Of a stretch of 64,000 nucleotides of DNA, positions 19,310 to 44,166 are shown piece after piece. Under the pieces are notes generated by a model, which was not told the origin of the DNA, ran no database searches, and saw only the letters and a list, made by a program, of their open reading frames with translations. The stretch comes from Stenotrophomonas sp. NA06056. GTDB lineage: Bacteria > Pseudomonadota > Gammaproteobacteria > Xanthomonadales > Xanthomonadaceae. The DNA lies in the NCBI RefSeq assembly GCF_013364355.1, contig NZ_CP054931.1:1364001-1428000 (forward strand), in the 5' to 3' direction. How positions within the stretch are numbered: position 1 is the first letter of the stretch; every line of letters starts with the position of its first letter. A program made the position numbers and the translations under genes.

Positions 19310-19336
19310 TTCCGGTTCGTTGTGATGTCATGCGAA

Positions 19337-19361: not shown

Positions 19362-19411
19362 GTTGGGTGGCGGTTGGCAGCGTAGAGCGGCGCCTTGGTT
19401 GTTCCGTGAGC

Positions 19412-19517
19412 GAGCGGGCGGGTCACCCGGGCCAGGACACGCCGTAAACCCATCCCTGGGGGCTCGGTCGCGGCATCCATGCCGCGAACGGTCCTGGCCC
19501 GGGTGACCCGCCCGCTC
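19412..19517 (+). repeat. Branched palindrome (three-way-junction repeat), copy 3
   Basis: A 27-bp perfectly complementary outer stem (19412-19438 with 19491-19517) encloses two small hairpins: 19449-19460 (CCCA-TCCC-TGGG) and 19469-19486 (CGCGGCA-TCCA-TGCCGCG). The core GCCGTAAACCCATCC is shared with the copies at 36185-36282 and the split copy at 34677/35999, whereas the outer arms differ in sequence. It lies downstream of a gene in the same orientation. Confidence 0.8.
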
Positions 19518-19542
19518 CAGACGGTTCCCGAGTGCGGCCGCT

Positions 19543-19630
19543 GTAGAGCCGAGCCCACGCTCGGCTCAGGCCGAAGCCGGAGGGCAAGGAAGAGCAAAAG
19601 CAAAAGCAGCCAAGCATGGCTTGGCTCTAC
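19543..19630. repeat. SMAG head-to-head pair
   Basis: GTAG palindrome 19543-19566 and inverted copy 19608-19630 (stem AGCCAAGC/GCTTGGCT). With the branched palindrome before it and the 190-bp repeat after it, the whole 612-base gap 19310-19921 is repeat sequence without a recognisable gene. Confidence 0.8.
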
Positions 19631-19662
19631 CAGGAGCGGTTATGCGTGCGCTCGCGGCTGTT

Positions 19663-19848
19663 GGGTCCGCCTTGTAGCGAGCCGAGCACCGCAGGGGAAT
19701 CAGGGGCGAAGAGGCGCGGGTGTCCGAGCGAAGCGAGTTCCGCGCCGTCCCCTGATTCGCGGAGGAGCGCAGGGCACCGGTGCGCAGCACCGGCTCGCGG
19801 ATGGCGGAGCGTTTCTTTGGTTACTTTCTTTTCGCGAAAAGAAAGTGA
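19663..19848 (-). repeat. ~190-bp dispersed repeat, copy C
   Basis: Same orientation as copy B (5311-5498): GGTCCGCCTTGTAGCGAGCC at one end and the hairpin CTTTCTTTTC/GAAAAGAAAG at the other. The hairpin differs from copies A and B by paired changes (TTTGC/GCAAA to TTTTC/GAAAA), so pairing is kept. Confidence 0.78.
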
Positions 19849-19921
19849 CAAGCCCAATCATCGAGGGAGAGCAACGGCCCCAGCCAAACGCCCGGCGCCG
19901 CCGAATCCGCTGTTCGCAGCG

Positions 19922-21169
19922 TCACTGCAGGTCGCGAAGATTCAGTTTCCGCAATGTCGGGTTCTTCCACGCGGTGATCCCGGCCACGCTCAGCACCGCG
20001 AACCCGCCCAGCACCACCGCCGGTACCAGCCCCAGCACCTTGGCCATCGTGCCGGCATAGAACGCGCCCAGTTCGTTGGACGAGCTGATGAAGATGCCGT
20101 TGATGGACGAGACCCGACCGCGCATCTCTTCTGGCGTGGCCAGCTGCAGGATGGTGGAGCGGATCACCACCGACACGCCGTCGAAGGCGCCGTAGAACAG
20201 CAGGATCAACGCCGACAGCCAGAAGTGCTGGGACAGGCCGAAGCCGATCACGCAGAGGCCGAAGCCGGCCACCGCGAACAGCAGCACGCGGCCGGCATTA
20301 CGGTGCAGCGGGTGGCGTGCCAGCCACAGGCCCACGCACACCGAACCCAGCGCCGGCATGGCGCGCAGGATGCCCAGGCCCTCGGGGCCGTGATGCAGGA
20401 TCTCGTGCAGGAACGCTGGCAGCATCGCCACCACGCCGCCCAGCAGCACCGAGAACATGTCCAGCGCCATGGCGCCGACCATGATCCGGTTGCCGACCAC
20501 GAAGCGCGCGCCTTCAGCGATGCTTTTGAAGATCGGGGCGGCTGGGCCGGCATGCACCGGCTCTTCCACCTTCAGTGTGGCCAGGCAGCCCATCGCCACC
20601 AGCGCGAAGACCGTGGCCACCGCATAGGCCAGGCCCTTGCCACCGAAGCCGACCAGTACGCCACCCAGTGCCGGGCCGGCGATCATGCCGGTCTGGAACA
20701 CCACGGCGCCGAGGCCGGCGCCACGGGCGAAATGCTCACGCGGCAACACGCGGGCGAACAGTGCGTTGTAGATCGGTGACAGGAAGGCGCGGACCATGCC
20801 GGTCAGGGCGATGGCTGCATAGATCGGCCACACGCCTTCAACCGGCAGCCAGCCCTTGGCGACGCTGGTCAGCACCAGCGCGGTGGCGATCAGTCCGGAA
20901 CAGGCGACCATGCCCAGTCGGCGGCGCGGCAGGTGATCCACCAGGTAACCGGCGAACGGTGCCACGCAGAAGAACGGCAGTACCTCGGCCAGACCGATCA
21001 GGCCCAGCGAGAACGGATTGCGGGTGACTTCGTAGATATGCCAACCGACGGTGACCGCAACCACCTGGTAGGACAGCATCGCGAAGATGCGGTACGCCAG
21101 CAGCCGGGCGAAACCGGGCCGGGACAGCAGGCCCAGCGCCGTGTCTTCGGCCGTGGCAGGTTCGCTCAC
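19922..21169 (-). CDS. MFS transporter, EntS-like
   Basis: A 415-residue major facilitator with about 10-12 hydrophobic segments. The first loop motif reads DHLPRRRLGM, and the region SPIYNALFARVLPREHFARG resembles EntS/enterobactin-exporter-type MFS_3 proteins. The substrate cannot be inferred; no siderophore genes are present. The ATG overlaps the sufE stop by 4 bases, so it is translated with sufE. Confidence 0.8.
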   Translation of the reverse strand: MSEPATAEDTALGLLSRPGFARLLAYRIFAMLSYQVVAVTVGWHIYEVTRNPFSLGLIGLAEVLPFFCVAPFAGYLVDHLPRRRLGMVACSGLIATALVLTSVAKGWLPVEGVWPIYAAIALTGMVRAFLSPIYNALFARVLPREHFARGAGLGAVVFQTGMIAGPALGGVLVGFGGKGLAYAVATVFALVAMGCLATLKVEEPVHAGPAAPIFKSIAEGARFVVGNRIMVGAMALDMFSVLLGGVVAMLPAFLHEILHHGPEGLGILRAMPALGSVCVGLWLARHPLHRNAGRVLLFAVAGFGLCVIGFGLSQHFWLSALILLFYGAFDGVSVVIRSTILQLATPEEMRGRVSSINGIFISSSNELGAFYAGTMAKVLGLVPAVVLGGFAVLSVAGITAWKNPTLRKLNLRDLQ

Positions 21170-21618
21170 GACGGATCGCGCTGCAGCTGCGCCTGCGCGG
21201 TCTCACGGATGAAGGCCAGCATCGCCGCCACGCCGTTGCTGCGGGTCGGCGACAGGTGGCGGGCCAGGCCGATATCCTGGATGTAGCTGGGTTCGGTGGC
21301 CAGGATCTCCTGCGCGGTGCGCCCGGAGTACACGCGCAGCGCCAGGAAGATCAGGCCGGAGACGATGGCCGAATCGCTGATGGCGTGGAAGCGCAGCGAC
21401 TGCGCATTGCCTTCCGGCACGATCCAGACCATCGACTGGCAACCGAGCAGACGATGTTCTTCGGTCTTCCACTCTTCCGGAAACGCCGGCAGCTTGCGGC
21501 CGAGGTCGATCAGGTACTGGTAGCGCTCGGACCAGTCGCCGAAGAAACCGAATTCCTCGGCGATGGCCGTCTGTGCCTCGGTGGCGGTGGGTTCAAGCGG
21601 GAACGGGGAGTCGATCAC
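21166..21618 (-). CDS. sufE: SufE family sulfur-transfer protein
   Basis: A 150-residue SufE/CsdE protein that accepts persulfide sulfur from a cysteine desulfurase. The active cysteine lies in HRLLGCQSMVWIVPE (about residue 60), and SDSAIVSGLIFLALRVYSG is the following family motif. No sufBCDS is present in the window, so it may act with a desulfurase encoded elsewhere. Overlaps the downstream MFS gene by ATGA. Confidence 0.92.
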   Translation of the reverse strand: MIDSPFPLEPTATEAQTAIAEEFGFFGDWSERYQYLIDLGRKLPAFPEEWKTEEHRLLGCQSMVWIVPEGNAQSLRFHAISDSAIVSGLIFLALRVYSGRTAQEILATEPSYIQDIGLARHLSPTRSNGVAAMLAFIRETAQAQLQRDPS

Positions 21619-21672
21619 AACAGTCTCTACAGTGGGGGCGTGGCCGGCGGACCGGCCACGGGGCAGGGTGGG

Positions 21673-23049
21673 TCAGCCGCGCTTGCGCGACCAGCGGACG
21701 CCCTGCGGGGTGTCTTCCAGCACGATGCCCTCGGCGGCCAGCTGGTCGCGGATGGCGTCGGAACGGGCGAAGTCGCGCGACTGCTTCGCCGCTGCGCGTT
21801 CGTCGATCAAGCCCTGGATGCGTGCATCGTCGCTTTCATCGCCGGCTGCGGTTCCGAACCATTGCGCCGGATCGGCCTGCAGCAGGCCCAGCGCCAGGCC
21901 GGCGCCGAGCAGCTCGCCCTTCAAGCGTGCGCGTTCGGCCGGATCGGTGGCGCGGCGCGCTTCACCGGCGATACGGGCGACTTCAGCCAGCGCCTGCGGA
22001 GTGTTGAGATCGTCGTCCAGCGTCGCCTCGACGGCAGCCGGAATCGCTACGCTGGCCTCGATCGACGCCAGCTCGCGCAGGGTGCCGTACAGGCGGTCCA
22101 GCGTGCGCACCGATTGCTCGATCAGGCCATCGGACCAGTCCAGCGGCTGCCGGTAGTGGGCCGACAGCAGGGCCAGGCGCAGTGCCTCCGGGGGGTGCTG
22201 GCGCACCAGATCGTGCACGCGCTCGATGTTGCCCAGCGACTTGCTCATCTTGGCACCGCCGAAGTTGAGCATGCCGTTGTGCAGCCAGAAGCGGGCGAAG
22301 ATCTTGCCGCCATGGGCGCATTCGCTCTGCGCCAACTCGTTCTCGTGATGCGGGAACTGCAGGTCGACGCCACCGGCATGGATGTCGATGGTCTCGCCCA
22401 GGTGCGCGGCGGCCATTGCCGAGCATTCGATATGCCAGCCCGGACGGCCGCGGCCCCAAGGCGATTCCCAGCCGGGCAGGTCATCGCTGGACGGCTTCCA
22501 CAGCACGAAATCGCCCGGATCGCGCTTGTAGGGGGCCACATCGACACGGGCACCGGCCAGCATTTCCTCGGGATCGCGGCGCGACAGCTTGCCGTAGCCC
22601 TCGAAGCTGCTGACCGAGAACAGCACGTGGCCCTCGGCCGGGTAGGCGTGGCCACCGGCAATCAGCTGTTCGATCATGGTGACGATCTGTGGAATGTGCG
22701 CGGTCACTTCCGGTTCGATATCCGGCGGCACCACGCCCAGCGCGGCCATGTCTTCACGGTAGGCAGCGGCGAAACGGTCGGTGATGGTGCTGATCGGCAC
22801 CCCCTGCTCGCGCGCGGCGGTGTTGATCTTGTCGTCCACGTCGGTGATGTTGCGGGCGTAGCGCAGGGCGCCGAAGCGTCGCCGCAGCAGGTCGGCCAGC
22901 ACCCCGAACACCACCGGCCCACGGGCGTTGCCGATGTGCACGTAGTTGTAGACCGTCGGGCCGCACACATACAGGGTCGGACAGGCCGGGTCGAGCGGGG
23001 TGAACGGTTCGAGCTGGCGAGTCAGGTTGTTGTGCAGGCGCAGGGTCAT
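21673..23049 (-). CDS. cysS: Cysteinyl-tRNA synthetase
   Basis: A 458-residue class I aminoacyl-tRNA synthetase. Zn ligand Cys in [20 protein letters not shown], which also holds the HIGH motif; [10 protein letters not shown] is the zinc histidine region; AKMSKSLGN is the KMSKS loop. Length matches E. coli CysRS (461). The start [10 protein letters not shown] is the normal family beginning. sufE begins 54 bases downstream, a plausible cysteine-themed operon. Confidence 0.97.
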
Positions 23050-23235
23050 GGGTCTGTGACTGGGGGACAAGCCTGTGATTTTAGAACGTGTCGGCCCCTT
23101 TGGGGGGGCCGTTGCCACCGGTGGACGTCACCGGCCGCCGGGGTGGGGTGGGCAGGAACGACGCGGACGGGTAATGTTCAGCCCCTTGCGGTCACCACTG
23201 CCTACACTATTGCCGTGTCCCTGCTCCCATCGCCA

Positions 23236-23799
23236 ATGAAAACCACCGCGTTGCTGACCCTGGCCTGCCTGTCGGCGCTGCCCGCCGTGGTCCTGGCCCA
23301 GGAGGCCGAGCCCCGCAACCGGGTGGTGATCGTGGAGAACGTGAAGTTCGACTACGCCCAGGTGCTCAACGTGGAGCCGGTGTTCCAGACCCTGCGCGCA
23401 ACCCGTACCGAGGAGCATTGCGAGCCGGTCTCGACCCGCACCCTGGCCCCGGTCAACGTCACCGGCGAAGAGCCGGTCGAGGACAAGGGCCGCATCGGCC
23501 GCCTGTGGGATTCGGTACGCTCGATGTTCAAGCGCAGCGACGAGGAAGGGCTGGAGGAGGTTCCGGCGGAAACGCCGGCCCCGGCGCCGGCTAACACGGG
23601 CCCGATGCTGACCCGGGACTGTCGCATCGTGCCTGTCGGGCGCGAGTTCCGCCGTCCCATCGCCTATGACGTGGACTATGTCTACAAGGGCACCAAGTAC
23701 CGCTCACGGTTGCCGGAAGACCCCGGCAACCGGCTGAAGATCCGGGTTTCGATCACCCCTTGGGTGGGCCCCGAGCAGGCTGCCGCTGGCACCCCCTGA
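23236..23799 (+). CDS. Secreted protein of unknown function
   Basis: A 187-residue protein with a clear signal peptide (MKTTALLTLACLSALPAVVLAQ), a Pro/Glu-rich linker near residues 110-130, two mature cysteines that might pair (EEHCEP and RDCRIV), and a C-terminal beta-type motif YDVDYVYKGTKYRSRLPEDP. That motif resembles the end domain of glycine-zipper envelope proteins in xanthomonads, but the glycine zipper itself is missing here. Likely periplasmic or outer-membrane associated. Divergent from cysS. Confidence 0.75.
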   Translation: MKTTALLTLACLSALPAVVLAQEAEPRNRVVIVENVKFDYAQVLNVEPVFQTLRATRTEEHCEPVSTRTLAPVNVTGEEPVEDKGRIGRLWDSVRSMFKRSDEEGLEEVPAETPAPAPANTGPMLTRDCRIVPVGREFRRPIAYDVDYVYKGTKYRSRLPEDPGNRLKIRVSITPWVGPEQAAAGTP

Positions 23800-23817
23800 T
23801 TCTGAGACGCCGGCCCC

Positions 23818-23845
23818 TTGCGCCGGCCCCGGCTGCATGTAAAGA
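23818..23845 (+). promoter_or_regulatory. Candidate promoter of the arg leader
   Basis: TTGCGC at 23818-23823 and TAAAGA at 23840-23845, separated by 16 bases. The expected start site near 23852 would put the leader ATG (23856) almost at the 5' end of the RNA. Confidence 0.4.
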
Positions 23846-23855
23846 TTGCCGACCA

Positions 23856-23957
23856 ATGAAGCTCACCGACTTCCAGCACGACAGCAGCGCCGCCCGCCAG
23901 GCCACTGGCATGACGTCGCGTGCCCGTCGACCGGAACCCCACATCCTCGCTGGGTAA
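23856..23957 (+). CDS. Putative arginine leader peptide
   Basis: A 33-codon frame ending 30 bases before a strong intrinsic terminator. Arg codons cluster at residues 14, 22, 24 and 25 (TSRARRP). Its last two codons and stop, GCT GGG T(AA) at 23949-23955, match the 3' arm of the terminator and can pair with its 5' arm ACCCAGC (23989-23995). That is the arrangement of a ribosome-mediated attenuator. The frame has no strong SD, and the Arg count is only modestly above the GC-rich background, so this remains a hypothesis. Confidence 0.45.
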   Translation: MKLTDFQHDSSAARQATGMTSRARRPEPHILAG

Positions 23958-23982
23958 TCCGGAGCTTTCTGCTGTTCGTCCG

Positions 23983-24013
23983 AAAAAAACCCAGCCCGCC
24001 GGCTGGGTTTTTT
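23983..24013 (+). terminator. Terminator/attenuator upstream of argF'
   Basis: A 10-bp stem (23987-23996 with 24001-24010) with loop CGCC and flanking A and T runs. It may be the terminator of the secreted-protein gene ~190 bases upstream, or the attenuator of the arg operon; the competing pairing described for the leader peptide favours the latter. The 115 bases from here to argF' show nothing else but the SD. Confidence 0.85.
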
Positions 24014-24128
24014 CGTTTCCGCGTTCTGAAAGCTTCATCTGCAACCTTTTCGTACCACCCTGGTTCCCGGTTTTCCCTTCCACCTTCCACCGCGTCGGCC
24101 ACCGGCGCCGCTCAAGCAAGGAATGATG

Positions 24129-25139
24129 ATGTCCCCCAAGCACTTCCTGAACACCCAGGACTGGAGCCGCAGCGAACTTGACGCGCTGCTGACCCAGGCG
24201 GCGCTGTTCAAGCGCAACAAGCTCGGCGACCAGCTCAAGGGCAAGTCGATCGCGCTGGTGTTCTTCAATCCGTCCATGCGTACCCGCACCAGTTTCGAAC
24301 TGGGCGCGTTCCAGCTCGGTGCCCACGCGGTGGTGCTGCAGCCGGGCAAGGATGCCTGGCCGATCGAGTTCAACCTCGGCACGGTGATGGACGGCGATAC
24401 CGAAGAGCACATCGCTGAAGTGGCCAAGGTGCTTGGCCGTTACTGCGACATCATCGCCGTACGCGCATTCCCGAAGTTCGTCGACTGGGCCTACGACCGC
24501 CAGGATGTCGTGCTCGAGAGTTTCGCCAGGTACTCGCCAGTGCCGGTGATCAACATGGAAACCATCACCCATCCGTGCCAGGAGCTGGCGCACGTGATGG
24601 CGCTGCAGGAGCATTTCGGTACCCAGGACCTGCGCGGCAAGAAGTACGTGCTGACCTGGACCTACCACCCCAAGCCGCTGAACACCGCCGTGGCCAACTC
24701 GGCGCTGACCATCGCCACCCGCATGGGCATGGATGTGACCCTGCTGTGCCCGACCGCCGACTACATCCTCGACGAGCGCTACATGGGCTGGGCCGAGCAG
24801 AACGTCGCCGAGAGCGGCGGTTCGCTGAAGATCAGCCATGACATCGACAGCGCCTATGCCGGTGCCGACGTGGTCTATGCCAAGAGCTGGGGCGCGCTGC
24901 CGTTCTTCGGCAACTGGGAGCCGGAAAAGCCGATCCGCGACCAGTTCAAGCACTTCATCGTCGACGAGCGGAAGATGGCGCTGACCAACAACGGTGTGTT
25001 TAGCCACTGCCTGCCGCTGCGCCGCAACGTAAAGGCGACCGACGGCGTGATGGATTCGCCGCAGTGCATCGCCATCAACGAGGCCGAGAATCGCCTGCAT
25101 GTGCAGAAGGCGATCATGGCCGCTGTTGCCGGGCGCTGA
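24129..25139 (+). CDS. argF': N-acetylornithine carbamoyltransferase
   Basis: A 336-residue transcarbamylase of the xanthomonad type, making N-acetylcitrulline from N-acetylornithine and carbamoyl phosphate. The carbamoyl-phosphate motif is SMRTRTSFE, not the S-T-R-T of classical OTCase; HPCQE is present; the C-terminal HCLPLRRNVKATD contains the lysine that is carboxylated in the X. campestris enzyme (Lys302). Of three consecutive ATGs, the third is chosen: it puts that lysine at 302 and leaves AAGGA six bases upstream. It opens the arginine gene run. Confidence 0.95.
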   Translation: MSPKHFLNTQDWSRSELDALLTQAALFKRNKLGDQLKGKSIALVFFNPSMRTRTSFELGAFQLGAHAVVLQPGKDAWPIEFNLGTVMDGDTEEHIAEVAKVLGRYCDIIAVRAFPKFVDWAYDRQDVVLESFARYSPVPVINMETITHPCQELAHVMALQEHFGTQDLRGKKYVLTWTYHPKPLNTAVANSALTIATRMGMDVTLLCPTADYILDERYMGWAEQNVAESGGSLKISHDIDSAYAGADVVYAKSWGALPFFGNWEPEKPIRDQFKHFIVDERKMALTNNGVFSHCLPLRRNVKATDGVMDSPQCIAINEAENRLHVQKAIMAAVAGR

Positions 25140-25161
25140 CTCTTTTCGATTCGAACATTTC

Positions 25162-25184
25162 CGCCGGGCATGGCCCGGCGCTAC
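25162..25184 (-). repeat. SMAG-type palindrome in the argF'-argG gap
   Basis: CGCCGGGC-AT-GGCCCGGCG-type stem ending CTAC, 16 bases before the argG ATG. As an intercistronic hairpin it could affect mRNA stability between the two genes. Confidence 0.78.
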
Positions 25185-25199
25185 CAGGACATATCCCCC

Positions 25200-26393
25200 A
25201 TGAGCAACAAAGACGTCGTTCTCGCCTTCTCCGGCGGCCTTGATACCAGCTTCTGCGTGCCGTACCTGCAGGAGCGCGGCTACAACGTGCATACCGTGTT
25301 CGCTGATACCGGCGGCGTGGATGACGAAGAACGCGATTTCATCGAGAAGCGTGCTGCCGAGCTGGGTGTCACCAGCCACCAGACCGTCGATGGCGGTCCG
25401 GCCATCTGGTCGGGCTTCGTCAAGCCGTTCGTGTGGGCCGGTGAAGGCTACCAGGGCCAGTACCCGCTGCTGGTGTCGGACCGTTACCTGATCGTCGATG
25501 CCGCGCTCAAGCGCGCCGCCGAACTGGGCACCAACATCATCGCCCACGGCTGCACCGGCATGGGCAACGACCAGGTGCGTTTCGACCTGGCAGTGAAGGC
25601 CCTGGGTGACTACCAGATCATCGCGCCGATCCGCGAGATCCAGAAGGAACACACCCAGACCCGCGCCTACGAGCAGAAGTACCTGGAAGAGCGTGGCTTC
25701 GGCGTGCGCGCCAAGCAGCAGGCCTACACGATCAACGAGAACCTGCTGGGCCTGACCATGTCCGGCGGCGAGATCGATCGCTGGGAAGCACCGGGCGAGG
25801 GCGCGCGTGGCTGGTGCGCGCCACGCGCCGAGTGGCCGGAAGCACCGCTGACCGTCACCTTGAAGTTCGTCGAAGGCGAAGCCGTCGAGCTCAACGGCAA
25901 GGCGCTGCCGGGCGAGCAGATCCTGGCCCAGCTCAACAAGCTGTTCGCTCCGTACGGCGTCGGCCGTGGCGTGTACACCGGCGACACCGTGATCGGCCTG
26001 AAGGGTCGCATCGTGTTCGAGGCACCGGGCCTGGTCTCGCTGCTGGCCGCGCACCGCGCGCTGGAAGATGCGGTGCTGACCAAGCAGCAGAACCGCTTCA
26101 AGCCGGACGTGGCGCGCAAGTGGGTGGAGCTGGTGTACGAAGGCTTCTACCACGACCCGCTGAAGACCGACATCGAAGCGTTCCTGAAGTCCTCGCAGGC
26201 CAAGGTCAACGGTGAAGTGGTGCTGGAAACCCGTGGTGGCCGCGTCGACGCGGTGGCGGTGAAGTCGCCGCACCTGCTCAACACCAAGGGTGCCACCTAC
26301 GCGCAGTCGGCCGACTGGGGCGTGGAGGAGGCTGAAGGCTTCATCAAGCTGTTCGGCATGAGCTCAACGCTCTTTGCTCAAGTCAACCGCTGA
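25200..26393 (+). CDS. argG: Argininosuccinate synthase
   Basis: A 397-residue enzyme ligating citrulline and aspartate with ATP. The PP-loop [15 protein letters not shown] sits at residues 9-23, and [15 protein letters not shown] is the citrulline/aspartate site. In xanthomonads deacetylation of acetylcitrulline by ArgE precedes this step. Length and motifs fit the type I family. It ends 133 bases before argE. Confidence 0.97.
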
Positions 26394-26436
26394 GCGGTTG
26401 ACCACGCATTCCACCTCAACCCTGCGCCGTTGGCGC

Positions 26437-26502
26437 GCCCCCTTCAACAAGAAGGGGGCTCTCCACCAGACGCATTCCGGTAGCGCCGGGCCATGCCCGG
26501 CG
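26437..26502 (+). repeat. Intercistronic hairpin and SMAG palindrome (argG-argE)
   Basis: A 9-bp stem GCCCCCTTC-AACAA-GAAGGGGGC at 26437-26459 without a T-run, followed by a GTAG palindrome at 26480-26502 (stem CGCCGGGC). No terminator is evident, so transcription may continue into argE. Confidence 0.75.
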
Positions 26503-26526
26503 GAATTCCACAGGAACTGTTGATTC

Positions 26527-27615
26527 ATGCTTGAACAGACGCTCGATCACCTGCAGGCGCTGGTGTCCTTCGACACCCGCAACCCGCCGCGTGCGATCAC
26601 CACCGGTGGCATCTTCGATTACCTGCGCGACAACCTGCCCGGGTTCAATGTCGAGGTGATCGACCACGGTGCCGGTGCGGTCAGCCTGTATGCCGTGCGC
26701 GGTACGCCGAAGTACCTGTTCAACGTGCACCTGGATACCGTGCCGGATTCGCCGCACTGGAGTGCCGACCCGCACGTGATGCGCCGCCTGGACGACCGCG
26801 TGGTCGGCCTCGGTGTATGTGACATCAAGGGCGCGGCCGCAGCACTGGTGGCGGCCGCCAACGCCAGTGATGGTGATGCCGCGTTCCTGTTCTCCAGCGA
26901 CGAGGAAGCCAACGATCCGCGCTGCATCGCCGCGTTCCTGGCCCGGGGTATCAAGTACGAAGCCGTGCTGGTGGCCGAACCGACCATGAGCGAGGCAGTG
27001 CTGGCGCATCGAGGCATCAGCTCGGTGCTGATGCAGTTCGCCGGCCGCGCCGGCCATGCCTCGGGCAAGCAGGATGCCGCCGCCAGTGCGCTGCACCAGG
27101 CGATGCGCTGGGGCAACCGTGCGCTGGACCATGTGGAATCGCTGGCCTCGGCCCGCTTCGGTGGACTGACCGGCCTGCGCTTCAACATCGGGCGCGTTGA
27201 AGGTGGCATCAAGGCCAACATGATCGCGCCGGCGGCGGAAGTGCGCTTTGGTTTCCGGCCGCTGCCGTCGATGGATATCGATGCGCTGCTGGCGACCTTT
27301 GCCGGCTTCGCTGAACCCGCAGCGGCAGTGTTCACCGAAACCTTCCGTGGCCCGAGCCTGCCTGCCGGCGATATCGCCGAAGCTGAGAACCGCCGCCTGC
27401 TGGCGCGCGACGTGGCCGACGCGCTGGATATTCCGATCGGCAACGCGGTGGACTTCTGGACCGAGGCGTCGCTGTTCTCGGCCGCTGGCTACACCACGAT
27501 GGTGTTCGGACCGGGTGACATCGCCCAGGCCCATACCGCCGACGAGTTCGTGACGCTGGAGCAGCTGCAGCGCTACGCCGACGCCGTACATCGGATCATC
27601 GCCGCCGGCGCCTGA
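26527..27615 (+). CDS. argE: N-acetylcitrulline/acetylornithine deacetylase
   Basis: A 362-residue M20-family zinc hydrolase. Metal-site motifs: [11 protein letters not shown] (His and Asp), [12 protein letters not shown] (bridging Asp), SSDEEANDP (catalytic Glu pair) and AHTADEFV near the end. In xanthomonads the enzyme in this position removes the acetyl group from N-acetylcitrulline, and the order argF'-argG-argE supports that reading over classical acetylornithine deacetylase. Confidence 0.92.
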
Positions 27616-27689
27616 TCGACCCACAACGCCGCTGCGCACCTGCGCGTCGGAACTGCAACGCGGCGACCGCCGCCTGTGACGAAACCGAA

Positions 27690-29018
27690 ATGTCTCCTGC
27701 CCTCCAGCCCCACCGCCAGACCCGTCAGACCATCGTGCGCCTGCTTTCGAGCATGGCCAGCGCGAAGGAGATCAGCCAGTACCTCAAGCGCTTTTCGCAG
27801 CTGGACGCCAAGCGCTTCGCCGTGGTCAAGGTCGGCGGCGCGGTGCTGCGCGACGATCTCGACGCGCTGACCTCCTCGCTGTCGTTCCTGCAGGAAGTCG
27901 GCCTGACCCCGATCGTGCTGCATGGCGCCGGTCCGCAGCTGGATGCGGAACTGTCGGCCGCCGGCATTGAAAAGCAGACGGTCAATGGCCTGCGGGTGAC
28001 GTCGCCGGAAGCGCTGGCGATCGTGCGCCGGGTGTTCCAGCAGTCCAACCTGCGCTTGGTCGAAGCCCTGCAGCAGAACGGCGCGCGCGCCACCTCCATT
28101 ACGGGCGGCGTGTTCGAGGCCGAGTACCTGGGCCTGGATACCTACGGCCTGGTCGGCGAAGTAAAGAAGGTCAACCTGGCGCCGATCGAAGCCAGCCTGC
28201 GTGCAGGCTCCATTCCGGTCATCACCAGCCTGGGCGAGACGGCGGGTGGCCAGATTCTCAACGTCAATGCCGACTTCGCCGCCAACGAACTGGTGCAGGA
28301 ACTGCAGCCGTACAAGATCATCTTCCTGACCGGCACCGGTGGCCTGCTGGACGAAGAGGGCAGCGTGATCGATTCGATCAACCTGTCCACCGAGTACGAC
28401 CACCTGATCGAGCAGCCGTGGATTCACGGCGGCATGAAGGTGAAGATCGAACAGATCAAGTCCCTGCTGGACCGGCTGCCGCTGGAATCGTCGGTGTCGA
28501 TCACTCGGCCCGCCGACCTGGCCAAGGAACTGTTCACCCACAAGGGCTCGGGTACGCTGGTACGCAAGGGCGAGAAGGTGCTGCGTGCAACCGCCTGGAG
28601 CGAGTTGGACCTGCCGCGCCTGAAGGGCCTGATCGAATCCAGTTTCGGCCGCACGCTGGTGCCGGACTATTTCGAGAAGACCACGTTGCTGCGCGCTTAC
28701 GTCAGTGAGAACTACCGCACGGCGGTGATCCTCACCGATGAGGCCGAGGGCGTGTACCTGGACAAGTTCGCCGTGCTCGACGACGCGCAGGGTGAAGGCC
28801 TGGGGCGCGCCGTCTGGAACGTGATGCGCGAAGAAACCCCGCAGCTGTTCTGGCGCTCGCGCAACGGCAACCCGATCAATCATTTCTACTACGCCGAGTC
28901 CGACGGCTGTTATAAGCAGGGCCATTGGAAGGTGTTCTGGTACGGCGCCGATGGCATCGACCGGATCAGGACGTATGTCGATCATTGCGCCGTGCGTGCG
29001 CCGAGCCTGGAGGGCTGA
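27690..29018 (+). CDS. argB: Bifunctional N-acetylglutamate synthase/kinase
   Basis: A 442-residue fusion. Residues ~20-285 form an amino-acid-kinase domain ([35 protein letters not shown]); residues ~290-442 form a GNAT-like NAGS domain (KLDKF-type core as [22 protein letters not shown], then HWKVFWYG). This matches the ~447-residue NAGS-K of X. campestris, which carries out the first two steps of arginine synthesis and is arginine-inhibited. Whether synthase and kinase are both inhibited by Arg here cannot be seen. Confidence 0.95.
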
Positions 29019-29023
29019 TCGCG

Positions 29024-29623
29024 ATGAACCACGCAGACTGGACCCGGGTACCCACGCTGACCGGCACGCATGCGCGGCTGGAGCCGCTGCAGATGAGCCA
29101 TATCGATGGCCTGCGCGGTGCGTTGGGCGACGGCGCGCTGTCCCGGCTCTGGTACACCCAGGTACCCGATGCGAAGACCATGACCGGCTATGTGCAGGCC
29201 GCCCTGCAGGCGCAGGCCGAGGGCAAGGTGCTGCCGTTCGTGGTGTTCGATGCCCACGGCCAGATCGTTGGCACCACCCGCTACTACGATCTGCAAGCGG
29301 ACGTGCCGCGGCTGAGCATCGGCTACACCTGGTATGACGAGTCGGTGCAGCGCACCGGGGTCAACACCGAAACCAAGCTGATGCTGCTCAGCCATGCCTT
29401 CGAGCGGCTGGAATGCCTGAGCGTGGTGTTTGAAACCAGCTGGTTCAACTTCACCTCGCGCACCGCGATCGCGCGCCTGGGCGCCAAGCAGGATGGCGTG
29501 CTGCGCAATCACAAGCGGCATGCCGACGGCACGCCGCGCGACACCGTCATCTTCTCCATCATCGACGCGGAATGGCAGGGCGTGAAACGCCACCTGCAGC
29601 ACCGCCTGGACAGTCACGCATGA
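29024..29623 (+). CDS. GNAT acetyltransferase (RimJ/RimL type) in arg operon
   Basis: A 199-residue GNAT protein of the Acetyltransf_3 (RimJ/RimL-like) type: [17 protein letters not shown] start, VGTTRYYDL, the acceptor-loop region [20 protein letters not shown], and a C-terminal [19 protein letters not shown] segment. It starts 5 bases after NAGS/K and overlaps argC by ATGA, so it is firmly part of the operon. The NAGS activity is already fused to the kinase, so its substrate is not obvious; protein N-terminal acetylation is the family default. Confidence 0.85.
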
Positions 29624-30573
29624 ACGATTCGACTTTCACCCTGGGCATCGTCGGTGCCCGCGGCCATACCGGCGCCGAGCTGATCAAGCTGGTGGCCGCC
29701 CATCCGCGGCTGAAACTGGCCTTCGTCTCTTCGCGTGAGCGCGCCGGGCAGCGCCTGTCCGATCACCATCCGGAATTCCAGGGTGACCTGCAGTACGAGA
29801 ACCTGGACGCCGACGCAGTGGCCGCCAAGGGCGTGGATGCGGTGATCCTGGCCCTGCCCAATGGCCTGGCCGCACCGTTCGTGGCCGCGCTTGAAACCGC
29901 GAAACCGGACACTGTCATCGTCGACCTCTCGGCCGACTACCGTTTCGACAGCAGCTGGTACTACGGCCTGCCGGAACTGACCCGTGGCCGCTACAACGGC
30001 CAGAAGCACATCAGCAACCCGGGCTGCTATGCCACCGCGATGCAGCTGGCGGTGCATCCGCTGCAGGACCTGCTGGCCGGTCCGCCGCAGTGCTTCGGCG
30101 TGTCCGGCTACTCCGGTGCCGGCACCTCGCCGTCGGACAAGAACAACGTCGAGCTGCTGGCCGACAACCTGATGCCGTACGCGCTGACCAACCACGTGCA
30201 CGAACGCGAGGTGTCCGTACAGCTGGGCGTGGCGGTTGAATTCATGCCGCACGTCGCGCCGCATTTCCGTGGCATTACGCTCACCGCCAACCTGTGGCTG
30301 AACCGCGTGCAGACCCGCGAGCAGATCGTCGAGCGTTTCCAGCAGGCCTATGCCGGTGAAGCGCTCATCGAGGTCGTGGACGACGCGCCGTGGGTAAGCC
30401 GTATCGCCGGCCGCCATGGCGCCCAGGTCGGTGGCTTCACGCTGGCCCCGGGCGGCAAGCGGGTGGTGGTGGTGGCGACCCTGGACAACCTGCTCAAGGG
30501 CGCGGCCACCCAGGCCATGCAGAACCTCAATCTCGCGCTGGGTATCGACGAACTGACGTCGATCCCGCACTGA
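29620..30573 (+). CDS. argC: N-acetyl-gamma-glutamyl-phosphate reductase
   Basis: A 317-residue NADP-dependent reductase. Dinucleotide motif [16 protein letters not shown] (residues 9-24); catalytic Cys in [14 protein letters not shown] (about residue 132); [16 protein letters not shown] follows. The protein belongs to the type 1 ArgC group. Overlaps the GNAT gene by 4 bases and is followed by argH after 20 bases. The step following it, acetylornithine aminotransferase, is not encoded in this run. Confidence 0.96.
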
Positions 30574-30593
30574 ACCCGCATTCCGGAGCCCCC

Positions 30594-31889
30594 ATGGCAG
30601 ACCTTCTTTGGCAGAAGCCCGGCGTCGCTGTCGACGCCAAGATCCAGACCTTCCTCGCCGGCGACGACGTGATCCTCGATCGCGAGTTCTTCCTGCACGA
30701 CATCGCTGCCAGCGCCGCGCATGCGCAGGGCCTGCAGCACATCGGCATCCTCAGCGCCGATGAACTGGCTGGCCTGCTGCGCGAACTGGACGTGCTGGCG
30801 CAGGACTTCCGCGAAGGCCGTTTCGTGCTCGATACGCAGTATGAGGATGGCCATTCGGCGATCGAAGCGCGCCTGACCGAACGCCTCGGTGATGCCGGCC
30901 GCAAGATCCACACCGGCCGTAGCCGCAACGACCAGATCCTGGTCGCCACCCGGTTGTGGTTGAAGGAAAAGCTGCAGCACGTGGCGCAGGTCAGTGCCGA
31001 AGTGGCCAAGGTCGCGCTTGACCGCGCGCAGGCCGAGCAGCACCTGCCTATTCCGGGTTACACCCACATCCAGCGTGCGGTGGTGTCCTCGGCCGGCATG
31101 TGGTGGGCCGGTTGGGCCGAAGCCTTCATCGACAACGCCGTGCGTGCCCGCGATACCCATGCGCTGGTCGATGCCAATCCGCTCGGCACCGCCGCCGGTT
31201 ACGGCGTGAACCTGCCGCTGGACCGCGAGCATACGACCAGCGCGCTCGGCTTTGCGCGCATGCAGATTTCACCGATCTATGCGCAGCTGTCGCGTGGCAA
31301 GTTCGAGCTGGCTGCATTGGAAGCGCTGGGCGGCGCGACCCTGGACCTGCGCCGCATCGCCTGGGACCTGTCGCTGTTCACCAGCGCCGAATTCGGTTTC
31401 GTCGCGCTACCGGCGCAGTACACCACCGGTAGTTCGATCATGCCCAACAAGCGCAATCCGGACGTGATCGAACTGATGCGGGCCACCCACGCCAGCGTCG
31501 CTGCCGCGCGTACCGAGATCGAACAGCTGCTGTCGCTGCCGTCGGGCTACCACCGTGACCTGCAGTCGTCCAAGGGCGCGATCTTCCACGGCTTCGGTCG
31601 TGGCCTGGCCGCGCTGGAGCTGCTGCCGGCACTGCTGGCCAACCTGGAATGGCGCGATGACAAGCTGCGTTCGGCGATCGATTCGGGCATGTACGCCACC
31701 GACGTAGCGGTGGAGGCCGCGGTAGCGGGTGTGCCGTTCCGCGAGGCCTACAAGGCCGCTGCTGTCGGGGCCGACAGTGCGGGGCAGGGGCGTACGCCGG
31801 AAGGCAGCCTGGCGGCGCGCGTATCGCCGGGTTCGGCGTCGGACCTGCGCCTGGATGAACTGCGCGCGCGCTGGCAGGCGCTGTCCTGA
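30594..31889 (+). CDS. argH: Argininosuccinate lyase
   Basis: A 431-residue member of the fumarase/aspartase superfamily splitting argininosuccinate to arginine and fumarate. Signature [12 protein letters not shown] (near residue 280), HTGRSRNDQ (substrate loop) and GYTHIQRAV. It is a little shorter than E. coli ArgH (457), as in xanthomonads. The stop overlaps the next ATG as TGATG, linking it to the YciI-like gene. Confidence 0.96.
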
Positions 31890-32152
31890 TGGCCGGCACC
31901 GTCTACCTGGTGCTGGCGATGCGCCAGCCGGGCTTCACCGATGCCGTGGTGCAACCGCACCGCGACTTCCTTGATGCGTTGCAGGCCGAAGGCAAGCTGC
32001 AGCTGACCGGCGGCTTCGCCGATGGCAGTGGTGGCGCCTACGTGCTGTGCAACATCGACAGCCTTGCGCAGGCACAGGCCATCGTCGCCACCGATCCGCT
32101 GGTGACGATGCAGGCATCGGCACTGACCGTCCATGAATGGAATACGCGCTGA
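31889..32152 (+). CDS. YciI-like protein
   Basis: An 87-residue protein of the YciI-like (YCII) family, small ferredoxin-fold proteins with a conserved His-Asp pair; here His26 in QPHRDFLDAL is a candidate. Family members are dimeric and mostly unassigned, some being dehalogenase/dehydrochlorinase-like. It sits between argH (1-base overlap) and proB (10-base gap) and so is cotranscribed with Arg/Pro synthesis genes; its role there is unknown. Confidence 0.85.
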   Translation: MAGTVYLVLAMRQPGFTDAVVQPHRDFLDALQAEGKLQLTGGFADGSGGAYVLCNIDSLAQAQAIVATDPLVTMQASALTVHEWNTR

Positions 32153-32162
32153 GGCGCCTCTG

Positions 32163-33320
32163 ATGACCGTCCACGCTGCCACCGTTGCATCGCCGTTCCC
32201 CGAACAAGCGCTGCCGTCGTGGCGGCGTGCCGTGCTCAAGGTCGGCAGCAGCCTGCTCGCTGCCGATGGTGGCGGCCTGTCGCCGCGTCACGCGCTGGGC
32301 CTGGCCCAGTTTGTCTCGGCCAATGTGCTGGCCGGTCGCGAGGTCGTCATTGTCTCCTCCGGTGCAGTGGCTGCCGGCCGCGCGATCCTGCCCCGGGCCG
32401 ATGAGCCCGGCGCGGCGATGGCTGCACGACAGGCGTTGGCGGCACTTGGCCAGGCACAGCTGATCGGTCTGTGGCAGCGCTTCTTCGAACGCCCGGTGGC
32501 GCAGGTGCTGCTGACCCATGACGATCTGCGCAACCGCCGTCGCTACCTCAACGCGCGGGCAACCCTCAACGAATTGCTGCGGCTGGGCGCACTGCCGGTG
32601 GTGAACGAGAACGATACCGTCTCGGTGGACGAGCTCAAGCTCGGTGACAACGACAACCTGGCCGCGACGGTGGCAGCGCTGGTCGATGCCGATGCACTGT
32701 TCATCGCCACCGACATCGATGGTCTGTTCAGTGCCGACCCGCGCACGCATGCCGATGCACGACCGCTGCACGAGGTGTCTGAGTTGAATGATGCAGTGCT
32801 TGCGATGGCCGGTGGTGCCGGTTCAGTCGCCGGTACCGGTGGCATGCGCACCAAGCTGGAGGCCGCGGCCAAGGCCGGCCGGGTCGGCATCGAAACCTAC
32901 TTGTTCAACGGCCGCAGCGGCGAGGTGGTGCGCGCGCTGGCGCAGGATCGCCTGTTCGGTACCCGCATCCACCCTGCGCGCAGCCGCGAGGCGGCCCGCA
33001 AGCACTGGCTGCGGCACGCACCGCTGGCCGAGGGTGCGATCCTGATCGATGCCGGTGCAGCCCAGGCGATGCGCGAGAAAGGCGCCTCATTGCTGCCCGG
33101 TGGCATCACCGGCGCCGACGGCGCGTTCCGCCGTGGTGACATGGTGCAGGTGTGCTGGAACACCGAAGCCGGCAAGGTCTGCGTGGCCCGTGGCGTCAGC
33201 CAGTACGCTGCCGATGATGTGCGCCGCATTGCCGGCCGCCACAGCCGGGATATCCAGGCCGTGCTCGGCTACAACTACGGCGGTACCGTCGTCCATCGCG
33301 ACGATCTGGTGCTGCCATGA
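32163..33320 (+). CDS. proB: Glutamate 5-kinase with PUA domain
   Basis: A 385-residue kinase for the first step of proline synthesis. Kinase domain at residues ~20-270 ([39 protein letters not shown]), then a C-terminal PUA domain (about residues 290-370, [20 protein letters not shown]). The first ~20 residues are a short extension, with ATG at 32163. Stop overlaps a possible proA start by ATGA. Feedback inhibition by proline is the family rule. Confidence 0.96.
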
Positions 33321-33340
33321 CCGGACTGCAGGAGGTCCCG

Positions 33341-34588
33341 ATGAGTGAGATCGAATCGCAGGCCCGCGCCTGCCGCGACGCAGCCCAGGTGGTCGCTGGC
33401 CTCGACAGCGATGCGCGCAGGGCGCTGCTGCAGGCGATGGCGCAGGCGCTGGAGGTCAATGCCGGGCAGATTCTTGCGGGTAATGCGCGCGACCTGGCCG
33501 CCGCCCGCGACAAGGGTGTCGGCAGCGCGATGCTTGACCGCCTGGCGTTGGACCCGGCGCGCCTGTTCGCGATGGCCGAGGCCGTGCGCGAAGTGGCCGC
33601 GTTGCCGGACCCGATCGGGCAGGTGACCCGCGACGACGTGCGTCCGAACGGCATCCGCGTGCAGAAGGTGCGCGTGCCGCTGGGGGTGATCGCGATGATC
33701 TACGAAGCACGCCCGAACGTGACTGCCGAAGCCGCCGCGCTGTGCCTGAAGGCAGGCAACGGTGTGATTCTGCGTGGAGGTTCGGAGGCGATCCATTCCA
33801 ATACCGCCATCGCCCAGGCGTTGGCTGGTGCATTGAAGGCCAACGGCGTGCCGCCTGCCGCAGTGACGGTGCTGACCGACCTGCGCCGCGAAGCCATGCT
33901 GGAACTGCTGCAGCTGCATGAACTGATCGACCTGGCCATCCCGCGCGGTGGCGAAGGCCTGATCCGTTTCGTTGCCGAACATGCGCGGGTTCCGGTGATC
34001 AAGCACTACAAGGGTGTCTGCCACCTGTTCGTGGATGCCACCGCCGATCTCGCCAAAGCAGTCGATCTGCTGGTGGATGGCAAGTGCAGCCGCCCGTCTG
34101 CATGCAATTCACTGGAAACCCTGCTGGTGCACCAGGACATTGCCGCAGCGTTCCTGCCGCGTGCCGGACAGGCACTGGCCGAACGTGGCGTGGAGTTGCG
34201 TGCCGACGAGCGCGCGCAGCCGTTGCTGCCGGGAAGCATCGCGGCCAACGAAGATGACTATGCCGCCGAATTTCTTGATCTGGTGCTGGCGGTACGCGTG
34301 GTCGATGATCTTGACGGAGCTGTCGCGCACATCCGTACCTACACCTCCGACCATACCGAAGTGATCGCTACCGAAGACGCGGCCAGTGCCGAGCGTTTCG
34401 TCAACGCGTTGCGCTCGGCAGTGGTGATGGTCAATGCGTCATCGCGCTTTTCCGATGGCGGCCAGCTTGGCCTTGGCAGCGAGATCGGCATCTCCACCAC
34501 GCGCCTGCACGCCTATGGCCCGATGGGATTGGAAGCGCTCACCGTCGAACGTTTCGTGGTGCGCGGCGAAGGCCAGGTCCGGAGTTAG
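33341..34588 (+). CDS. proA: Gamma-glutamyl phosphate reductase
   Basis: A 415-residue aldehyde-dehydrogenase-fold enzyme making glutamate semialdehyde. The catalytic Cys is in [18 protein letters not shown]. Start at [10 protein letters not shown] is preferred because GGAGGT sits 4 bases upstream; an ATG at 33317, overlapping proB by 4 bases, would add eight residues and is the alternative. It closes the Arg-Pro gene run; its 3' flank is the start of a repeat region containing an IS110 element. Confidence 0.95.
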
Positions 34589-34676
34589 GTTCACGGCCGG
34601 GCTGCGCCCGGCACCCGCAGAGGCAACTGCAACCGCAACGGCCGAAGCAACGGCAACAGCTGGGTTCCTGTGGGAT

Positions 34677-34723
34677 GGCGGGGTGGGTCCGGTTGCGGGG
34701 GACGCCGTAAATCCATCCATGGA
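34677..34723 (+). repeat. Branched palindrome copy 1, left half
   Basis: A 25-base arm (34677-34701) followed by GACGCCGTAAATCCATCC and the small hairpin TCCA-TCCA-TGGA (34712-34723). The matching right half is at 35950-35999, about 1.2 kb away; the arm 35975-35999 is its exact reverse complement. The sequence upstream (34599-34676) also matches, inverted, the flank at 36290-36361. Confidence 0.75.
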
Positions 34724-34771
34724 GCAACTGTGTTGAGAGAGGGGCCTCGGCCCCTCCGACAGTCACGCACG

Positions 34772-34794
34772 GTAGTGCCGGCCGCTGGCCGGCA
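34772..34794 (+). repeat. SMAG-type palindrome
   Basis: GTAG followed by TGCCGGCC-GCT-GGCCGGCA. It lies 3' of the transposase gene, either inside the element or next to it. Confidence 0.7.
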
Positions 34795-34821
34795 GCCTTT
34801 TGGGGCACGCGCAGACTGGCT

Positions 34822-35736
34822 TCAGGCGGGGATCGATCCGCCTTGAGCGTCACGCACGCGGGCGTTGAGAATCACCAGCATCTTCCGCATCACCGCCACG
34901 ATGGCTACTTTTCCTTCTTTGCCTCGGGCTCGCAGCGACTGGTAGAAATCGCGCAGTCGAGGTTCATGCCGCATGGCCGACATGCTGGCCATGTAAAGCA
35001 CCTGACGGATCTCGGCCCTGCCGCCATGGATGCTTCGTTTGCCGCGCATGGTTCCACTGTCGTGGGACATGGGTGCTACACCGACCAGACTGGCGATGGC
35101 CTTGCCGCTGATCTTGCCCAGCTCCGGCAGATAGCTGGCCAATACCGCCTGCAGGACAGGGCCCACGCCTTTCATCGACTTCAGTACCGCCAGCTGGGGT
35201 TGCTGGGCAACCTGCTCGGCAATCTGCTGTCCCAAACGCCCAACCATCCTCTGCAGGCGGCTGATGCTGGCTTGCAGCAGTCGGCGCAACTCACGATCGG
35301 TCACCATCTCCTGCTGCTGGCGCGCTACGGTCAGGGCTTCCATCGTCTGTCGACGCGCCCGCACAAATTCCCGCAGCTTTTGCTGCCAGGGCTCCAGTGG
35401 CTGATAGGCGGGCAGTTTCACCAAGGCCGCCATCTGCGCCAATGCATAGGCATCCAGACGGTCGGTCTTGGCCACCTGGCCCATTCCCTGGGCCAGCCTG
35501 CGAGCCCGCAGCGCGTTGGCACGAACCACCGCATGACCGGCGTTGTGCAGAAAGTTCAGTACTGACTGTTCGTAGCCCCCAGTGGCCTCCAGCACGATCT
35601 GGCTCACCGGATGTTTCCTCAACCAGAGATCCAATTCAGCGAAACCCGAAGCGCTATTGCTAACCTGCAGCACCTCTCCGTCCGTCGTGCCGACATCCAG
35701 TTGGCGCTTGCTGACATCAATCCCGATCCCGTTCAT
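34822..35736 (-). CDS. IS110-family transposase (DEDD, serine-type C-domain)
   Basis: A 304-residue recombinase. N-terminal RuvC-like DEDD domain: GIDVSKRQLDVG (first Asp), VLEATGGYEQS (Glu), KTDRLDAYALAQMA (Asp pair); a central coiled region (about residues 105-185); and a Tnp_20 C-terminal domain (SMKGVGPVLQAVL, VGVAPMSHDSGTMRGKRSIH) holding the catalytic serine candidate. It appears intact. IS110 recombinases work with a bridge RNA from the noncoding end of the element to choose target and donor. Upstream frame extension runs through noncoding DNA and is not used. Confidence 0.93.
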   Translation of the reverse strand: MNGIGIDVSKRQLDVGTTDGEVLQVSNSASGFAELDLWLRKHPVSQIVLEATGGYEQSVLNFLHNAGHAVVRANALRARRLAQGMGQVAKTDRLDAYALAQMAALVKLPAYQPLEPWQQKLREFVRARRQTMEALTVARQQQEMVTDRELRRLLQASISRLQRMVGRLGQQIAEQVAQQPQLAVLKSMKGVGPVLQAVLASYLPELGKISGKAIASLVGVAPMSHDSGTMRGKRSIHGGRAEIRQVLYMASMSAMRHEPRLRDFYQSLRARGKEGKVAIVAVMRKMLVILNARVRDAQGGSIPA

Positions 35737-35946
35737 CACCGGACTCCGTATAGTCTGGAAGGGTCGAGAGCTCCCCCGCTTGCCCAGTCTTATTACTGCG
35801 AGTGTCAGCTCCAGCAACTGTTCGGGCGGATCAAGGGAGATTCCGGCGTGGGCGCCAAGCTCCAAGGCGATCGTCGAGATCCAGGCTTGCACGGCGGCCC
35901 ACGCCGGCTCTCGGCACCTACGCTGCCAGATTCCGATCAGATAAGG
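35737..35946 (-). ncRNA. Candidate IS110 bridge-RNA region
   Basis: The ~210-base noncoding segment just upstream of the transposase, where IS110-group elements encode their bridge RNA. Two short matches to the insertion flanks lie inside: AGCAACTGT at 35813-35821 equals 34723-34731 across the left junction, and TGGGCGC at 35849-35855 equals 35949-35955 just outside the right junction. The sequence between them can form a small stem. In the established IS621 model the two target guides pair with opposite strands; these two matches fall on the same strand, so at most one may be a true guide. Prediction only. Confidence 0.4.
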
Positions 35947-35949
35947 CTT

Positions 35950-35999
35950 GGGCGCGCCATCCATGGCGCTTACACCCCCGCAACCGGACCCACCCCGCC
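35950..35999 (+). repeat. Branched palindrome copy 1, right half
   Basis: Small hairpin GCGCCA-TCCA-TGGCGC (35954-35969) followed by the 25-base arm 35975-35999, exact complement of 34677-34701. It continues into TCGACAGATCTCCGCAATCT, also found (diverged, inverted) beside copy 2 near 36164-36183. Bases 36000-36070 hold no gene. Confidence 0.75.
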
Positions 36000-36070
36000 T
36001 TCGACAGATCTCCGCAATCTGTCGGGATGGCATGGCCTGCTCTTGGTGGGTGCCGACCTTGGTCGACACA

Positions 36071-36160
36071 TAGATCCACGCCATGCGTGGATGCTTTTCA
36101 TTCCTAATTCGAAATATTCGATTCCGATGGAGATTCATCCACGCATGGCGTGGATCCACC
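36071..36160. repeat. SMAG-like pair
   Basis: TAGATCCACG-CCATG-CGTGGAT at 36071-36092 and an inverted partner at 36138-36160, with an unusually AT-rich 45 bases between them (CTAATTCGAAATATTCG). A related hairpin with CCGACC/GGTCG stem precedes at 36047-36070. Confidence 0.7.
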
Positions 36161-36184
36161 AGATTGCGGAAATCTGTCAGAGGT

Positions 36185-36282
36185 GGGGCGGTATGGGCAG
36201 GCAGGACCGTTGGCGCCATGGATGGCGCCATCGAGCCCCCATGGATGGGTTTACGGCGTGTCCTGCCTGCCCATACCGCCCC
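36185..36282 (-). repeat. Branched palindrome copy 2 (intact)
   Basis: A 23-bp perfect outer stem (36185-36207 with 36260-36282), with hairpins TGGCGCCA-TGGA-TGGCGCCA at 36211-36230 and CCCA-TGGA-TGGG at 36238-36249. Same core as copies 1 and 3 but different outer arms. Together with flank 36283-36361 it repeats, inverted, the sequence following proA. It lies directly 3' of pgaD in the same orientation as that gene. Confidence 0.8.

Positions 36283-43874: not shown

Positions 43875-43951
<77 letters not shown>

Positions 43952-44089: not shown

Positions 44090-44166
<77 letters not shown>

Follow-up and report, generated by a model that had tools for sequence, protein, structure and literature searches.

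A branched palindrome of Stenotrophomonas and other Gammaproteobacteria whose arms change together, a possible paired CsrA/RsmA site

REP (repetitive extragenic palindrome) and SMAG repeats are palindromes of 20–40 bp (PMC3733652; publications are cited by accession). Template switching that homogenizes the arms of inverted repeats has been documented (PMC8794818), and bacterial quasipalindromes have been described in this context (PMC7202029). An ANGGAN hexaloop has been reported for RsmE, and the consensus RUACARGGAUGU was obtained for CsrA by systematic evolution of ligands by exponential enrichment (SELEX). CsrA bridges sites 10–63 nt apart, best at more than 18 nt, and prefers hairpins of few base pairs; very stable hairpins may be bound less well (PMC7652899). 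RsmU of Xanthomonas is an RsmA binder from the 3′-untranslated region (3′-UTR) of one gene (PMC7694677). In the present study, we analyzed 64,000 nt of Stenotrophomonas sp. NA06056 (contig NZ_CP054931.1, positions 1,364,001–1,428,000, forward strand; hereafter the window), which carry three copies of a branched palindrome with a conserved core and long outer arms. The two arms of this palindrome change together, and we speculate that it acts as a dispersed RNA with a paired CsrA/RsmA site.

Shape, distribution and arm changes of the palindrome

The original prediction placed three copies in the window. All three were present, with arms of 27, 25 and 23 bp that were perfectly complementary in each copy. 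The second copy was indeed split, and an insertion sequence (IS) interrupts it; however, its second half begins at 35946 rather than 35950, the end of the IS being uncertain by one base. The strand on which the original prediction gave the core is referred to below as the reference strand. The features of the copies, in window coordinates, are as follows.

19412..19438, plus strand: left arm of copy 1, 27 bp, perfect complement of the right arm
19439..19490, minus strand (proposed functional sense): conserved core of copy 1, 52 nt
19452..19457 and 19475..19480: hairpin loops of copy 1, AGGGAU and AUGGAU, respectively, on the minus strand
19491..19517, plus strand: right arm of copy 1, 27 bp
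34677..34701, plus strand: left arm of copy 2, 25 bp, perfectly paired with the right arm
34702..34724, minus strand: first part of the core of copy 2, with the hairpin 1 loop at 34715..34720
35946..35974, minus strand: second part of the core of copy 2, with the hairpin 2 loop at 35959..35964
35975..35999, plus strand: right arm of copy 2, 25 bp
36185..36282: copy 3 as a whole, reference strand on the minus strand
36185..36207, plus strand: first arm of copy 3, 23 bp, perfect
36208..36259, plus strand (proposed functional sense): core of copy 3
36218..36223 and 36241..36246, plus strand: ANGGAN loops of copy 3
36220..36222 and 36243..36245, plus strand: GGA motifs of copy 3, with 20 nt between them
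36260..36282, plus strand: second arm of copy 3, 23 bp

In each window copy, the 52-nt core forms two small hairpins that join the stem at a three-way junction. Folding was markedly better than that of shuffled sequences (z = −11.0, −10.4 and −10.2; 0 of 200 shuffles were as good in each case), the third folded sequence being the split copy with the IS removed and one G short.

The palindrome belongs to a large family rather than to a set of merely three copies, as revealed by covariance model searches within Stenotrophomonas, in relatives and in the class. In the genome of NA06056, the core pattern with up to two mismatches matched 163 times, against 19 times for the reversed pattern, and the covariance model, built from 50 chosen copies, gave at least 150 matches, a lower bound because every candidate scored was a match. 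Of the 163 pattern matches, approximately 100 were retrieved. Fifteen of 118 core matches had an arm score below 15 and were dropped, IS-split copies among them, leaving 103 parsed copies. The core was 52 nt long in 99 of these, and the other four were excluded from the mismatch count. The arms were mostly 22–28 bp in this genome and up to 48 bp elsewhere. Only 84 of 2504 arm pairs were mismatched in the 99 copies, 42 of which had perfect arms, and 82 of the 103 copies had the tail GACAG no more than 20 nt from the right arm.

Copies from relatives were kept only with three or fewer core mismatches and an arm score of at least 10. Many Stenotrophomonas-like bacteria carry dozens to approximately 150 copies. 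Matches were found in 22 of 41 relatives and, within the genus, in 19 of 25 genomes, including that of NA06056. In an even draw from the class, in which carriers were judged by the covariance model, 46 of 274 genomes and 41 of 221 genera had matches; strict filters were applied and few candidates scored, and the counts per genome are lower bounds. Pattern carriers among the matches listed included Stenotrophomonas, Xanthomonas, Marinobacter, Rheinheimera, Microbulbifer, Methylotuvimicrobium, Haliea and Saccharospirillum. The family spans the class with a patchy distribution, and most of its copies are intergenic. Searches of plasmids, phages and Escherichia coli genomes gave only short partial matches (three plasmid and five phage records) and none in E. 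coli. An Rfam scan of the window gave no match over the palindromes, with only sub-threshold matches at 19300–19700 at E values up to 1. In the open-licence literature, we found no description of the repeat and no 15-base core string; nothing longer than 12-base strings occurred, in seven papers that by title concern other subjects.

The original prediction also held that the shape is preserved while the arm sequence is free, by selection or by a mechanism of its own, and covariation in further copies bore this out for NA06056, its relatives and other genera. In the 50 chosen copies, 94.9% of arm cells were paired, against 69.9% in shuffles, and 36 of 43 pairs showed two-sided changes. In several other genomes, the tip was nearly constant and the arms of the copies were mutually unrelated. 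Among near-identical arms, on tree edges with up to four changed pairs (123 distinct arms), there were 89 complete two-arm and 76 one-arm changes, and 55 of the 89 were of the transversion type, which cannot pass through G·U. The polarized subset contained 23 two-arm and 30 one-arm changes. When 12 loci of NA06056 were compared with nine congeners, 57 of 102 orthologous intervals contained at least one copy, and the orthologous copies (64 comparisons over 22 pairs each) showed 336 two-arm and 67 other differences. By eye, the orthologue of copy 1 in genome G021 differed at eight of the 27 arm positions, each time with a matching change in the other arm; the neighboring gene is 92% identical. 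Since close copies often differ by a single complete two-arm change, we infer, with good support, that the arms were probably copied from each other in single template-switch events and not slowly compensated. The shape thus appears to be kept by a mechanism, the two-arm changes behaving as single steps. Gene conversion between copies may also contribute. The shape, the linked change of both arms and the class-wide spread are firm.

Strand asymmetry, loop motifs and competing explanations

Mismatches of the types A·C and G·T are expected to be equal if both strands are counted alike. However, the A·C:G·T ratio on the reference strand was 46:4 in the 99 copies of NA06056. Stenotrophomonas relatives (66 copies) and other genera (119 copies) gave ratios of 39:5 and 98:16, respectively. 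The excess was present in all four strand-by-chromosome-half classes of NA06056 (4:0, 24:2, 15:1 and 3:1). A·C mismatches on the reference strand are G·U pairs on the opposite strand. As a positive control, 13 terminator-like hairpins in the same stretches had 12 G·T and two A·C mismatches on the transcribed strand. TC/TC mismatches beside hairpin 2, which are tandem G·A pairs on the opposite strand, were observed in 19 of 99 copies of NA06056 and 12 of 119 of other genera. Because the surviving mismatches are G·U (or G·A, G·G) on the strand opposite to the reference strand, this strand likely acts as RNA. Strand-biased deamination may contribute to the skew. We rejected it as the sole cause because it would give only C-to-T changes, whereas T-to-C, G-to-T and G-to-C changes were also retained on the reference strand, in small numbers.

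The loops suggest a specific partner. On the opposite strand, the loop of hairpin 1 was ANGGAN in 99 of 99 copies of NA06056 and 117 of 119 copies of other genera; its GGA was part of the search pattern and its first A, for NA06056, was not. Hairpin 2, which was located by structure alone and was absent from the patterns, had ANGGAN in 98 of 99 copies of NA06056. The two GGA motifs of copy 3 are 20 nt apart on the plus strand. CsrA family proteins were found in 45 of 49 carrier genomes, carriers alone being counted. Binding of the reverse-strand RNA by CsrA/RsmA is our best specific guess. A dispersed structured RNA with a paired, predicted CsrA/RsmA site is the best reading of these findings, and we hold it tentatively.

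The conserved 52-nt tip, with its two small hairpins and three-way junction, sits on a long stem of free sequence in which pairing is kept. Probably, a single template-switch (quasipalindrome-correction) event during DNA synthesis renews both arms at once, and perfect arms would then need no slow compensation. The functional strand would be the reverse complement of the reference strand, working as RNA. With an ANGGAN loop on each hairpin, one RNA would present a paired site for a CsrA/RsmA dimer, and the copies may serve as binding sites that titrate CsrA/RsmA or locally control the transcripts carrying them. The element would spread passively, for example inside a miniature inverted-repeat transposable element (MITE) in Methylotuvimicrobium buryatense. 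In its widest form, this proposal is possible but doubtful: a class-wide, partly transposon-spread RNA family would provide gammaproteobacterial chromosomes with scattered paired CsrA/RsmA sites, a distributed sponge with stems self-perfected by template switching. If there is such a sponge, its shape is inherited by copying and not by selection on sequence. If the palindrome acts as RNA, the amount of free CsrA/RsmA in these bacteria would hinge on a dispersed repeat overlooked by annotation. In either case, covariation alone is no proof of selection on an RNA, and the family offers extensive natural data on how hairpins keep perfect stems, in which tip and stem may be compared copy by copy.

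Several observations weigh against this RNA. In other genera, hairpin 2 located by structure alone contained GGA in 86 and ANGGA in 70 of 119 copies, part of the misses being due to the wrong hairpin having been picked; when sought via TCC, ANGGAN was found in 95 of 119. The stem is very long, unlike the short hairpins that CsrA prefers. Carrier G235, rated 98% complete, had no CsrA match, and neither did three further carriers that were 67–88% complete. No enrichment of T-runs followed the stem on either strand (111 and 109 flanks in other genera), and no position beside the arms exceeded 0.2 bit of conservation in other genera. Single copies in other genera had no orientation preference, the 5′ neighbor facing them with its 3′ end in 35 cases and with its start in 32, and so the proposed sense has no fixed source of transcription. 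Folding energy was strand-neutral (−92.7 and −91.9, −78.0 and −78.1 kcal/mol), the pair next to the hairpin 1 loop was G·T on the reference strand in 13 of 50 copies, and single-stranded DNA (ssDNA) would also tolerate G·T best. Moreover, six of the 25 genomes of the genus had no match, and the element is therefore dispensable.

The most serious alternative, although somewhat unlikely, is a neutral or nucleoid-structural repeat similar to REP or bacterial interspersed mosaic elements (BIME), homogenized by template switching and tolerated between genes, with a core that owes its conservation to recent spread or to a DNA-binding protein. With gene calls from a simple purpose-made script, none of 103 copies in NA06056 and seven of 112 in other genera overlapped a called gene. 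The patchy presence among genomes, the mosaic with SMAG-like hairpins and the probable loss of sequence at two loci by deletion between short direct repeats fit such a repeat, and bacterial quasipalindromes have been shown to undergo template switching (PMC7202029, PMC8794818). However, this explanation predicts neither the strand-specific mismatch skew, for which deamination alone does not account, nor a common tip throughout the class with unrelated arms inside one genome. A DNA element, one strand of which folds as ssDNA during copying, transposition or recombination in the manner of T-shaped terminal hairpins, is improbable. It would owe its arm complementarity to self-templated synthesis and its strand bias to the ssDNA form, consistent with the one-step two-arm changes; G·T is also the mildest DNA mismatch. 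Adjacent copies less than 700 bp apart were always tail to tail (39 of 39 in NA06056 and 38 of 38 in genome G005), and 49 of 72 unpaired copies of NA06056 lay in one replication-linked orientation, with the origin assumed at the contig start. A·C mismatches numbered 39 in 64 copies of the favored orientation and seven in 35 of the other, an approximately threefold difference per copy. However, under the same assumption, neither G005 (26 of 45) nor M. buryatense (46 of 107) showed this orientation bias, and we dropped it as evidence for an ssDNA life. In other genera, 12 of 19 neighboring copies spaced by up to 1 kb were tail to tail, and nearly all copies of M. buryatense were unpaired (111 matches, two adjacent cases). 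Furthermore, the flanks of the arms in other genera lacked a conserved cleavage-like motif, 24 Stenotrophomonas pairs were bordered by neither terminal repeats nor target duplications, and no dedicated enzyme was found. The three PF01797 (REP-type transposase) places in NA06056 were all more than 5 kb from a listed copy, and such genes also occur in the copy-free genomes G004 and G007; therefore, we rejected the REP-type transposase as the mobilizer.

The original prediction also considered an mRNA 3′-end structure, a stabilizer or terminator in the orientation of the upstream gene. Each of the three window copies does closely follow the 3′ end of a gene and share its orientation (a DksA-domain gene, an aldehyde-dehydrogenase/proA-type gene and pgaD), and, with the gene calls of the same simple script, a gene 3′ end was located on the 5′ side of 67 of 103 copies in NA06056, often 40–110 nt away. 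However, this placement did not extend to the single copies of other genera, the mismatch skew favors the opposite strand, and the stem lacks the T-run of an intrinsic terminator. An intrinsic-terminator-like hairpin already lies between copy 1 and its upstream gene. A general role at mRNA 3′ ends is thus highly improbable, and a dispersed RNA with paired CsrA/RsmA sites remains our preferred reading.

Spread, loss and insertions

In M. buryatense, an element of 164 bp with the inverted ends CAGCAATTCCC...GGGAATTGCTG contains the palindrome. The pair of terminal inverted repeats was found in 16 of 20 fetched regions, 15 of which had 8–10 shared flanking bases. Loci L357–L374 carry this MITE with target duplications of approximately 9 bp, and a 213-bp variant at L372–L374 has an extra hairpin insert in hairpin 2. 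By eye, other inverted-repeat elements of M. buryatense had the same core and other arms (L355, L356 and L372). The mobile hairpin suggested in the original prediction thus applies to the MITE of M. buryatense; however, no clear insertion or pre-insertion site was seen among the Stenotrophomonas orthologous loci read. At the empty sites L321, L464 and L467, the remnants resembled deletions between short direct repeats by eye, and copies were probably lost in this manner at two Stenotrophomonas loci. The unrelated arms had prompted the idea of target-derived arms, formed by insertion with inverted copying of the flank, which we rejected because the empty sites fit deletions better. The pair as a transposition unit was also rejected: partners were no more alike than shuffled pairs and had no common flanking repeat.

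Four tandem copies in one orientation, approximately 180 bp apart, were noted at L155, in a Saccharophagus metagenome-assembled genome. Ten loci of Stenotrophomonas relatives (L169, L247, L291, L295, L421, L425, L427, L474, L498 and L504) had a conserved, hairpin-rich insert of approximately 85 nt at the tip of hairpin 1.

The palindrome is also an IS target, as had been suggested. The element within copy 2 and the other features of this region are as follows.

approximately 34725..35945, minus strand: IS110-family element interrupting hairpin 1 of copy 2, with a one-base uncertainty at its ends
approximately 34822..35739, minus strand: IS110 transposase gene, with DEDD_Tnp_IS110 (PF01548) and Transposase_20 (PF02371)
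35763..35920, plus strand: Rfam sX15 match, in the noncoding region of the IS

Five IS copies were inserted at the same base of the palindrome core; they were taken from stretches around palindromes and from the window, and the common site is partly due to this choice. The minus strand of the noncoding region contains TGGAGCTTGG, which lacks one base of the intact target TGGAGGCTTGG and is a 10-nt near-match to the insertion site. IS110 elements have a target-guiding bridge RNA (PMC11208160), which the near-match in the sX15 region fits. The Rfam small RNA (sRNA) sX15 may be the bridge RNA of an IS110-family element. Elsewhere in the window, Rfam Xoo5, an sRNA of Xanthomonadaceae, matched at 23854–23978, and two equal-scoring tRNA matches lay approximately 215 bp apart (43878–43951 and 44093–44166).

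Comparison with described systems

Similar to REP, BIME and SMAG repeats, the palindrome is intergenic, present in many copies, often in inverted pairs, and a target of IS (PMC3733652, PMC3686654). In contrast to REP and SMAG, it is approximately 104 bp long and branched, with arms that differ between copies. No GTAG- or CGTC-type tag was found beside the arms, the GACAG tail being neither, and no REP-associated tyrosine transposase (RAYT) gene is nearby. Its layout is the opposite of that of integron attC sites, in which conserved outer core sites surround a variable middle; the palindrome has a conserved middle and variable outer arms. The M. buryatense palindrome resembles MITEs in its 164-bp element with terminal inverted repeats and target duplications of approximately 9 bp, whereas the Stenotrophomonas copies had no detected terminal repeats or target duplications. 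As in quasipalindrome correction (PMC8794818, PMC7202029), two arms appear to be made identical in one mutational event; however, the palindrome is a natural family of approximately 26-bp arms across a class, with a strand skew in addition. The CsrA/RsmA-sequestering RNAs CsrB/C, RsmX/Y/Z and RsmU share with it the ANGGA(N) hairpin loops and two sites within bridging distance. Unlike them, the palindrome occurs as many dispersed copies, and in each a very long stem of variable sequence carries only two predicted sites. By description, RsmU, the 3′-UTR-derived RsmA binder of a relative, may be likened to it (PMC7694677).

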